Positions 2,754 through 18,135 of a DNA stretch of 64,000 nt are shown piece after piece. The notes below the pieces were generated by a model that was not told where the DNA came from, made no database searches, and worked only from the letters and a program-made list of their open reading frames with translations. The position numbers were made by a program, and so were the translations under genes. The stretch spans positions 3,286,001 through 3,350,000 of the forward strand of contig NZ_CP032317.1 of assembly GCF_003574965.1 (NCBI RefSeq). The letters run 5' to 3'. This DNA is from Hymenobacter oligotrophus. GTDB lineage: Bacteria > Bacteroidota > Bacteroidia > Cytophagales > Hymenobacteraceae. Within the stretch, counting starts at the first letter, position 1, and each line of letters begins with the position of its first letter.

Positions 2754-3434
2754 ATGAAAATCCACAAAGAAGGTCGCCGTATTCTCTTCTTCACGCTGCT
2801 AATCCTGCTTGCCCTCAACTTGTTGCTATACCAGTTCAACGAGCAGGCCGAAGGGTTCAACCGCGTGTTTTCGGCAGTTTCGGTTATTGCCTTCTTGCTG
2901 CTGCTGCAATTTTTCCGCAGCCCCTTTCGCAACCTGCTCACCCACGAGGACCTGGTAATTGCCCCGGCCGACGGCAAAGTGGTGGTAATTGAGGACGTGC
3001 ACGAGCCCGAGTTCTTCGGCGACGTGCGCAAGCAGATCAGCATTTTCATGTCGCCGATCAACGTGCACATCACCCGCAACCCGGTGTCGGGCACGGTAAA
3101 GTACTTCAAGTATCACCCCGGCAAATACCTGGTGGCCTGGCACCCCAAGAGCAGCACCAAAAACGAGCGCACCACGGTGGTGGTAGAGTCCGAAGCCGGC
3201 CCGCTGGTATTGTTCCGGCAGATTGCCGGCGCCATGGCCCGCCGCATTGTGTGGTACGTAAACGAAGGCGACGAAGTAAGCCAGGGCGAGGAGTTCGGCT
3301 TCATCAAGTTCGGCTCGCGCGTCGACATCTTCGTGCCCGTCGACACCGAAATGAAGGTGCAGATCGGCGAAAAAGTTAAAGGCGGCCAAACGGTTATTGC
3401 CCAACTGAAAACCCAGTCGTCGGGCTTGTTCTAA
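2754..3434 (+). CDS. psd: Phosphatidylserine decarboxylase proenzyme (short form)
   Basis: Converts phosphatidylserine to phosphatidylethanolamine at the membrane using a pyruvoyl group made by self-cleavage. The 226-residue product has two N-terminal hydrophobic segments (about residues 9-26 and 39-54), a conserved NVHITRNP stretch, and the maturation motif F-G-S near residues 186-188, where cleavage before Ser188 would create the pyruvoyl subunit. A TTG at 2697 would add 19 atypical residues, so ATG 2754 was chosen. A strong terminator follows. The small size is that of the short PSD form common in Bacteroidota. Confidence 0.93.
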   Translation: MKIHKEGRRILFFTLLILLALNLLLYQFNEQAEGFNRVFSAVSVIAFLLLLQFFRSPFRNLLTHEDLVIAPADGKVVVIEDVHEPEFFGDVRKQISIFMSPINVHITRNPVSGTVKYFKYHPGKYLVAWHPKSSTKNERTTVVVESEAGPLVLFRQIAGAMARRIVWYVNEGDEVSQGEEFGFIKFGSRVDIFVPVDTEMKVQIGEKVKGGQTVIAQLKTQSSGLF

Positions 3435-3454: not shown

Positions 3455-3492
3455 AAAGGCCCGCTGCTCCCAGAGCAGCGGGCCTTTTTCTT
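3455..3492 (+). terminator. Rho-independent terminator after psd
   Basis: Perfect 15-base arms (3455-3469 and 3473-3487), 3-base loop, followed by a run of T. Confidence 0.85.
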
Positions 3493-3509
3493 TACCTAGG
3501 GCTTAGTAG

Positions 3510-3885
3510 TGTCATCCTGACGAAGGAAGGACCTTACCACGCCTGAATTTTACGTGACCTCTGCGCCCGAAGAATGTTCGATGCGCATTTACCCAAAGAG
3601 TGAAAGCGTGTATGCTACTTAACCCACGTTGCGGCGGGCCCGCGTGTAGCGCTGAGTGTTACTCGGCGCGGCGGCCCACAGCCGCCATTCGTAACCGCGC
3701 GGATTTATGCCATATGGCGCGGTGCCGGATTGGCGCCTTTGGCGCCAGCGCCGAGTAACACTCAGCGCTACACGCGGGCCCGCCGCAACTCAGCGTCAGC
3801 GCGCGTGGTAAGGTCCTTCCTGCGTCAGGATGACAATGCCATCGGACGTCAGCACGCGAGATGCCTCGACGGGGCTCGACATGAC
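3510..3885. repeat. Nested palindromic intergenic element
   Basis: This fills most of the 456-base gap between psd and the next gene; I see no coding frame in it. The outer arms of 33 bases (3510-3542 and 3803-3835) match with one mismatch and begin TGTCATCCTGACG. Inside them is a perfect 42-base inverted repeat (3628-3669 and 3748-3789) with a 78-base loop. Directly after the right outer arm, 3843-3885 carries a second repeat unit (GACGTCAGCACGCGAGATG, then CTCGACGGGGCTCGAC). The same two units recur side by side at 17785-17860. It has the features of a non-autonomous MITE or REP-like element. Confidence 0.75.
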
Positions 3886-3890
3886 ACGAC

Positions 3891-5063
3891 CTAGCTTACC
3901 ACGTGCGGCACAAACTCCGAAAGGTTGGTAATGATGCCGTTGGCCCGGCGGAAGCCTAGGGCACAGGCCTCGCCGGCCCAAAACACGCCGGCTTGGTAGC
4001 GGCGGCCTTGCGCATCGGCGGGCAGCTCGAGCCAGCGTTGGCGCACTTGCGGCTGCTGGTCGTAATCGCCCGGCTCGGCGTGCTGCACACGGCCATCCTG
4101 CACCTCTGCAAGGCTCTGGCCTTCGCGGCCAAATAGGGGCTTGCGTACGTAATGGCCGCCTAGGTCCTGCATCGAGGCCTCGGCCAGCAGGGGGTGGTGC
4201 GGAAACACTTGCCACAGCCAAGCCAGCATGGCTTTGCTCTGAAACAGCAGCGTGTACGCCGGGTTGGCAATAATCAGGTCGCGGCTTTGCAGCAGCTGGG
4301 TCAGGTCGGCAGTAAGCTCGGGTTCCTCTTCGGCCAGAATCTCCCACGGCACCAACTTGAACACAAACGGGAAGCGCTGCCACTCGCCAGCAGCTACTTC
4401 GGCCCAGGCGCCCCGCTCTTCTCCCAGCACCGAAACCTGCATCGCATCGACGGGGCACACGTGCACCGTGGCAAAGCCGGCCTCGCGGGCGGCTTCGGCA
4501 ATTACCTGGCAGTTGGTTTCGTCTTCCTGGCTATCGGGCAAATGCACAAGCAGCAAATTGGGCTCCAGGTCGGCGTTCAGGCCCAGCCACTCCCGCAGTT
4601 GCAGTTCCAAGCCTTCGAAGAGCCCGTTGGCTTGCTGCTGATCGTCGGGGCGGCCAGCGGCCATGAGGCTGGCCCACTGCACCACGGCGGTTTCGGGAAT
4701 GCTCGTAGCCGTATCGGCGTTAAACTCCACTAGCTTGACGCCTTCGGGGGTGCTGGCCAGGTCGAAACGGCCGTAGAGGTGCCAGTGCCGTTCGTCGTTC
4801 CAGGAGTGCCGCACGGCCTGCCACAAGTTGGTGGGTATGCCCAGCAACTGCAGAAAATCGTCGGGGATAGGGTCGGGTACGGCCTGTACCAGCATCTCGT
4901 AGAGCGTATCGGCCGCCTGCAGCAGTTCTTCGGCTTGCGGTTCGCTAAGCTCTATGGCCTCGGTAGCCAAGTAGGTAGCGCAGGCATCCTCCACGGCCCA
5001 GTCCCAACCCAAGCGCCGAATGGCCGGAGTAACATCGCCCGTTAGCGGAAGGAGACGAATCAT
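3891..5063 (-). CDS. Glutathionylspermidine synthase family protein (YgiC/YjfC-like)
   Basis: ATP-grasp-type ligase of the glutathionylspermidine synthase C-terminal family; the actual substrates of stand-alone members are not settled. The 390-residue protein carries family features such as the VEFNADTATSIPE stretch near residues 122-134, a downstream FKLVPWE and a C-terminal KPLFGREGQ stretch. ATG 5063 was chosen because the frame upstream is translated inverted-repeat sequence. The gene immediately upstream on the same strand encodes a YgiB-like lipoprotein, matching the E. coli ygiB-ygiC order. That pairing suggests an envelope-associated modification role (inference). Confidence 0.88.
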   Translation of the reverse strand: MIRLLPLTGDVTPAIRRLGWDWAVEDACATYLATEAIELSEPQAEELLQAADTLYEMLVQAVPDPIPDDFLQLLGIPTNLWQAVRHSWNDERHWHLYGRFDLASTPEGVKLVEFNADTATSIPETAVVQWASLMAAGRPDDQQQANGLFEGLELQLREWLGLNADLEPNLLLVHLPDSQEDETNCQVIAEAAREAGFATVHVCPVDAMQVSVLGEERGAWAEVAAGEWQRFPFVFKLVPWEILAEEEPELTADLTQLLQSRDLIIANPAYTLLFQSKAMLAWLWQVFPHHPLLAEASMQDLGGHYVRKPLFGREGQSLAEVQDGRVQHAEPGDYDQQPQVRQRWLELPADAQGRRYQAGVFWAGEACALGFRRANGIITNLSEFVPHVVS

Positions 5064-13880: not shown

Positions 13881-13998
13881 GAACGTCATGTCGAGCTTGC
13901 CGAGACATCTCGCTCGGGTGGTAATCTTCTCGTTAAACCAAGAAGTCACTCTCAGACGTCAGCACGCGAGATGTCCCGGCAAGCTCGACATGACGTTC
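13881..13998. repeat. Palindromic element between the wbpP-like gene and rfbA
   Basis: 33-base arms (13881-13913 and 13966-13998) agree except for one base and carry GTCATGTCGAGCTTGCCGAG and its complement. The right side has the GACGTCAGCACGCGAGATG unit also found at 3843 and 17817. It fills most of the 147-base gap. Confidence 0.75.
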
Positions 13999-17484: not shown

Positions 17485-18135
17485 AGCGAATTCGCAATAT
17501 ACTTTTGGAAAACCTTTCGTACGCGGCAAGGTACTCAAAAAAACGTTTGCACAGGTAGTTGCCGGGCTGCCCGTGCTGGTAGCGCGGGCCCGCACCTGGG
17601 GCGCAGCGGCCGCACCTTAGGTGCGGACTTTGGTAGCGTGGCGTAAATAAGAGCGTCACCTCTTGACTGTCATGTCGAGCCCCGTCGAGACATCTGGGGT
17701 GCTGACGCCCGATAGCATACACTCCCCCTCTCTTTGTGAGAGGGGGCCGTGCCCCGCAGGGGTCCCGTGAGGTTCATATGTAATAAGGTCCTTCCTTCGT
17801 CAGGATGACAATACTCTCGGACGTCAGCACGCGAGATGTCTCGACGGGGCTCGACGTGACGACCGATTAGTTTAGGGTTACCATCTTTCGGCGCGGGAAC
17901 AATACATCGGCTGCCCGCGCCGTTGCCAACCTAGGCCGGTGGGTGCGCAAGCAGCAGGGCGCAGGAGGCGTCGCATTATCGTGTGGTGGCGCCTTTGGCC
18001 AAGAGGCGGTAATTTTGGGGCGCTTTTCGTCTCAACCGAAACTCGAACCCACTTACGGACGTCTTTGGGTAACTGTCGACTTTAACGCACCGCTCGGTCG
18101 CCTTCACCTGGGCTTTCTGATTTGCTAGCAACCGT
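17485..18135. other. 651-base non-coding gap rich in repeats
   Basis: No convincing gene was found. The gap holds the inverted repeat pair at 17669-17860, an inner short hairpin (CCCCCTCTCTTTGTGAGAGG, about 17723) and a CCTAGG motif near 17931. A short open frame at 17943-18128 has no recognisable features and is taken as chance. The stretch just before 18136 should contain the promoter of the PD40/OmpA gene, but I could not pick a clear -7 box. Confidence 0.55.
17669..17860. repeat. Inverted pair of the CTCGACGGGGCTCGAC repeat
   Basis: A reversed copy at about 17669-17717 faces a forward copy at 17817-17860. Between them, 17785-17810 is a copy of the TGTCATCCTGACG-type arm of the element at 3510. 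Thus the right half (17785-17860) repeats the arrangement at 3803-3885 with few differences. Confidence 0.7.

Follow-up and report, generated by a model that had tools for sequence, protein, structure and literature searches.

Within a 64,000-nucleotide window of the Hymenobacter oligotrophus genome (the whole stretch of DNA that we analyzed), positions 3510–3885 hold a RAYT-type REPIN nested within a CGTC-type REP mosaic. We consider it very probable that two mobile repeats are nested here, an element of a family we call A followed by a lineage-specific REPIN of a second family, B, of the kind that RAYTs presumably recognize. Most likely the composite is selfish DNA that the gap between the two convergent genes tolerates.

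The element sits between psd, the phosphatidylserine decarboxylase gene (+ strand, ending at 3434), and a GSP_synth-family gene (− strand, ending near 3891). A preliminary description had called the stretch a gene-free nested palindrome, and this holds: inner and outer inverted arms are both recovered from the sequence, and no plausible gene lies within 3510–3885, where the only overlapping frame is a mechanical ORF at 3796–4458. The outer arms (3510–3542 and 3803–3835) are complementary at 32 of 33 positions, with one mismatch and 260 nt between them. The inner arms (3628–3669 and 3748–3789) are complementary at all 42 positions around a 78-nt loop, and are themselves a portion of a longer, 73-nt inverted repeat (84%). 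Folded as single-stranded DNA, 3510–3885 reaches a minimum free energy of −150.5 kcal/mol, compared with −75.0 ± 4.0 for 100 shuffled sequences (z −18.8). None of the 100 shuffles folds as well, which places the palindrome far beyond chance. What had been noted as a second repeat unit is a beta unit of the A family, ending in ATGACA at 3886. The parts are:

3455–3487, + strand: terminator-like hairpin of psd, outside the element (15-nt perfect arms, then a T run)
3510–3541, + strand: left alpha unit of the A family, TGTC tag outward (59 strict alpha matches in the genome)
3542–3627, no strand: left part of the A spacer, whose final bases already belong to the longer B variant, at its left end (TTAACCCAC); placed by comparison with L041 and L042, A elements that lack B
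3628–3789, no strand: long-arm variant of the B family, with perfect 42-nt arms and a 78-nt loop (from the sequence and other B copies)
3646–3771, no strand: B REPIN proper, GTAG-CGCTGAGT(GTT)ACTCGGCG, spacer, and inverted copy ending in CTAC
3790–3802, no strand: right part of the A spacer, resuming at about GCGTCAGCGCGCG (from alignment with L042)
3803–3835, − strand: right alpha unit of the A family, inverted
3847–3886, − strand: beta unit of the A family (CGTCAGCACGCGAGATGCCTCGACGGGGCTCGACATGACA; 39 strict beta matches in the genome)

Searching the H. oligotrophus genome (G000, in which the window spans C1:3286001-3350000) with 3500–3900 gave 80 matches: the stretch is built of dispersed repeats, and the absence of any other copy, which would have refuted the preliminary description, was not observed. 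These matches fall into two sets, A and B.

The B family has seven further dispersed copies, at 426, 697, 1981, 3369, 3874, 4044 and 4091 kb. They and the window copy carry GTAG-CGCTGAGT(NNN)ACTCGGCG and its inverse around a structured spacer, the 1981-kb copy in decayed form. B is a REPIN by its GT[AG]G at the hairpin foot, its two inverted copies (3646–3771) and its multiple dispersed extragenic copies. At up to 3 mismatches, the B REP matches the genome 13 times forward and 15 times in reverse, counts that include shifted overlapping matches and GTGG forms; a reversed-pattern control gave 0. Four copies (window, 697, 4044 and 4091 kb) have extra arm sequence in common beyond the tag. The extended arms were also considered as a separate third repeat and rejected: in G000 the pattern occurs only at three B copies, with 1 match for the reversed-pattern control.

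The genome encodes four Y1_Tnp genes. One, at 394.4–395.0 kb, scores 82 bits (cut-off 80) against NF047646, REP-associated tyrosine transposase, and also matches TnpArep 4er8; its neighbors are presumably menaquinone-pathway genes. REPINs that read GTGG-CGCGGAGT(GGY)ACTCCGCG lie on either side of this RAYT and of its orthologue in the congener G007, and the one upstream of the 394-kb RAYT is 71% identical to the B of the window over 128 nt. The B of the window combines the tag GTAG with a T.G stem pair, the RAYT-flanking REPs the tag GTGG with a G-C pair; in G007 both of these forms occur, along with intermediates such as GTGGCGCTGAGTGGCACTCGGCG. Among the RAYT loci scanned, none has a RAYT flanked by the exact GTAG-CGCTGAGT form, and the cognate enzyme of B is therefore assigned by likeness.

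Across 123 RAYT loci (80 and 30 from two sets plus 13 from the genus, with some duplicates), the GAGTG..ACTC core adjoins a RAYT only in L052/L194, L105/L195, L114, L196 and L197, which are the 394-kb RAYT, its orthologue and their closest relatives. Core matches at L120, L143 and L222 lie distant from their RAYT and are read as chance, and other RAYTs have other stems, such as CGCGAACT(TTGT)AGTTCGCG. One REP stem (GAGTG/ACTC) is tied to one RAYT clade in Hymenobacter-like bacteria. The earlier suggestion of an associated RAYT is thus borne out for the inner part of the stretch; for the outer family, A, no RAYT was found.

Around a second RAYT group (MSEKYK... proteins; L050, L097, L104), long inverted repeats with TGGCGCGAGTTTAGCGC-like ends flank the genes, and in L097 a terminator-like hairpin is repeated to either side of the RAYT. 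By eye, the flanks of one RAYT in the congener G004 (L100) read the same as those of Solirubrum puertoriconensis (L131).

B might instead have arisen or spread by template switching during replication, or by recombination between REP hairpins, with RAYT transposition playing no part. Such a process would suit arms that match perfectly over 42 nt although the best copies of the family are only 82–85% identical, and it would suit the 3369-kb copy (L032, G000:C1:3369369-3369501), where B occupies the place of a ~45-nt terminator-like hairpin that lies between the same two genes in G004 and G007. There the REPIN apparently takes the role of a terminator; L032 is the only other B copy with examined orthologues, and its site in G004 and G007 is not cleanly empty. 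Yet the dispersed B copies have a common spacer, which calls for copying of the whole unit, and a RAYT with B-like REPINs is present in the genome. We consider an origin by switching or recombination improbable and retain RAYT-type transposition as the proposed route for B.

The outer family is of another kind. Strict patterns find 59 alpha and 39 beta units in G000, with 0 for a reversed-pattern control, and alpha is present in 59 of 198 sampled Bacteroidota genomes, in 32 of 103 genera. Read towards ATGACA, alpha and beta have, by eye, a common scaffold of stem, TC, inner loop, TC, stem and ATGACA. Tags of the CGTC superfamily are found on 76 of 93 A units, reading TGTC (49), CGTC (26) or CCTC (1), where some of the units without a tag, including the beta of the window, are fuzzy-match offsets and a few units are counted twice. 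The beta unit has ATGTC/GACAT but an interrupted stem, and the alpha of the window has G.T instead of the outer A-T.

A units are combined as beta> <beta, alpha> <alpha, beta> alpha> <alpha <beta and other mosaics; like a BIME, A combines several REP motifs into a mosaic whose units are inverted relative to one another. In every multi-unit cluster with both orientations among the loci read, “>” units stand before “<” units. These loci comprise 29 from G000, the first 20 kb of the window and L108/L082 of G007, with L037 the same as window 17669 and L082 the same as L108. Among the matches listed (150 alpha matches in three congeners), at least 55 alpha pairs within 500 nt converge, while 0 diverge and 0 lie on the same strand. 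Strict alpha or beta units occur at none of 93 RAYT loci, and the both-orientation pattern at none of 43 (RAYT loci only). By eye, divergent beta-like units ~100–250 nt downstream of the L115 RAYT form an exception, and generic CGTC-like hairpins lie ~340–500 nt downstream of the RAYT in L166; at the density of such units both can be chance, and we rejected them as a link between A and RAYTs.

The window holds further A mosaics, beta> <beta at 13885–13994 and beta> <alpha <beta at 17669–17860. CCTAGG occurs 96 times in window positions 1–64000, against ~21 expected from base composition, making up most of the 149 CTAG sites, and some CCTAGG sites directly adjoin A elements.

Comparison of the psd site across congeners orders the two families in time. 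G004 has neither A nor B. G007 has alpha> spacer <beta, without B and without <alpha, and its A part thus differs from that of G000 too. G001 carries a beta-like unit, and G002 (L111) a different TGTCAT...ATGAC palindrome, TGTCATTGCGAGG...CTCGCAATGAC, possibly a third type of CGTC unit, built on a different stem; in the stretch read from G003, G005 and G006 there is no element. B REPs are at the site in none of the seven other congeners. Aligned with L042, the window agrees to the left and to the right of B, and B interrupts the match between ATGCTA and GCGTCAG, to within a few bases. Because G007 has A without B, the congeners lack B and the L042 spacer is collinear, A most likely preceded B at the psd site, B coming last; of the genomes compared, only this lineage has B there. 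Three congeneric states of one site set the order of events for a REPIN nested in a CGTC mosaic.

The perfect inner repeat had been taken as a sign of recent formation or active maintenance. Recent arrival fits the lack of B at this site in all seven congeners. Maintenance fared less well: across 13 B pairs, REPs differ by a mean of 2.15 mismatches within a pair and 2.47 between pairs, of 23, so that partners are not significantly more alike (shuffle P 0.08), and arm homogenization in B was set aside on this result.

We propose the following course of events. An A element, a REP mosaic with outward CGTC/TGTC tags, would have entered or formed in the gap between psd and the GSP_synth gene. A B REPIN would later have entered the A spacer beside ATGCTA, in this lineage only. 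A RAYT (TnpA-REP) is an HUH tyrosine nuclease thought to recognize the GTAG REP doublet as a single-strand hairpin, cut it at the tag and paste it. The 394-kb RAYT, or a lost sister of that RAYT, may have moved B.

A functional structured RNA, or a 3' regulatory hairpin serving psd or the GSP_synth gene, would account for the extreme fold stability and for a location downstream of two convergent genes. The preliminary description had raised a structured RNA, and nothing that we found supports one: the window has 0 Rfam matches at the gathering score, and a tRNA scan of it returned nothing. The terminator-like hairpin of psd precedes the element, which moreover is missing in G004 and different in G007, and the same repeats adjoin many unrelated genes. 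We regard such a function as very unlikely. A MITE-like element had also been suggested at first. Taken as a single transposon whose terminal inverted repeats are nested and which a DDE transposase moves, it is hardly credible despite the long inverted arms and an insertion-like pattern of presence and absence, since the stretch comprises two different REP-type families with GTAG and TGTC tags, B nested in A, whose parts occur separately throughout the genome with no second copy of the composite seen, and no target-site duplication was resolved at the orthologous site or in the alignment with L042. We keep to the nest of two mobile repeats.

Seven further orthologous sites with an A element in G000 were compared with G007. 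The element is conserved in line at L041/L249 and L265/L258, L047/L247 has the same architecture but other loops, and composition differs at the remaining four, L048, L058, L059 and L072. These sites were picked for their A hits and so are not a random sample, which leaves out the orthologue pairs L044/L241, L056/L238 and L060/L088; L041/L239 is a paralogous match. At L047/L247, the two alpha loop types seem to have changed places between G000 and G007, a pattern like that left by inversion of the element where it stands.

The two arms of A dimers resemble each other beyond expectation. Among the matches listed, alpha dimer loops are identical in 25 of 55 pairs; shuffling the right arms genome by genome gives an expectation of 5.9, and none of 20,000 shuffles reached the observed count. 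Beta dimer loops are identical in 22 of 38 pairs, against 7.5 expected. At the shortest spacings (62–65 nt for alpha, 52–57 nt for beta), 12 of 13 dimers are symmetric, compared with 35 of 80 others (Fisher P 0.002; alpha alone P 0.002, beta alone P 0.37). Symmetric loops come in at least 13 alpha types (by eye, among the matches listed) and 10 beta types. Either an element is copied whole, with its symmetry already in place, or one arm is the template for the other, and template switching is a known way for palindrome arms to be copied from each other, as described in the part of the source available to us (PMC8794818).

We tentatively suggest, as a possibility still on the doubtful side, that CGTC/TGTC REP mosaics may keep and remake their palindromes without a transposase, one arm of a dimer serving as template for the other where they stand, through template switching or hairpin-templated repair. 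Copying in place would explain the 13 alpha and 10 beta symmetric loop types and the near-complete symmetry at the shortest spacings, although the P values overstate the case for it, since the shuffles ignore common descent of elements. If it is true, a new loop sequence that arises in one arm would turn up in its partner as well. It becomes a testable question how the arms stay matched in REPs that have no known transposase.

A literature search, with most subscription journals outside its coverage, returned no report of such repeats in Hymenobacter, nor did one combining RAYT and Bacteroidetes; for GTCATCCTGA, the matches listed were unrelated work judging by title. REPINs, GTAG-tagged REP doublets with a RAYT, were reportedly described by Bertels and Rainey in 2011. 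The BIMEs of E. coli are Y/Z REP mosaics. In the portions of the sources available to us, GTAG-tagged REP doublets with a RAYT are covered by Di Nocera 2013 (PMC3733652), and GT[AG]G is the usual tag of RAYT REPs (PMC6006769). B is like known REPINs in its GTAG tag, its small-loop hairpin, its two inverted REPs with a spacer and its dispersed extragenic copies, and a RAYT flanked by like doublets is common to known REPINs and the 394-kb locus. The differences are that the REPs flanking the RAYT in this genome are the GTGG/CGCGGAGT variant, and that B stands apart in its long structured spacer and in the extra arm sequence outside the tag in four copies.

As far as the accessible text goes, REPs of the CGTC superfamily have an 8–9 bp stem with complementary AT at its first two positions and a 4–5 base loop, homodimers and heterodimers have already been described, and how these REPs are mobilized was left open (PMC3733652). 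A resembles them in its CGTC/TGTC tag and head-to-head dimers and, with RAYTs the only enzymes searched for here, in having no dedicated transposase; the beta stem is AT-first like theirs but interrupted; the superfamily is reported in Bacteroidetes (PMC3733652). Against that text, leaving its Figure 2 aside, A is distinguished by two unit types (alpha, beta) on one scaffold, by mosaics of up to four units and by the 2-nt TC/TC internal mismatches of its units. With E. coli BIMEs, as the consulted portions present them, A has in common mosaics of different REP types in inverted arrangement (PMC6006769, PMC2817692); unlike BIMEs, A has a strict polarity with all tags outward, and the loci read here show no long alternating arrays. 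GTAG REPINs with a RAYT and CGTC-tagged REPs without a known transposase are both already known kinds, and the stretch is therefore a new example, not a new kind: overall an ordinary, good case of nesting, in which arm symmetry is the one lead worth following.
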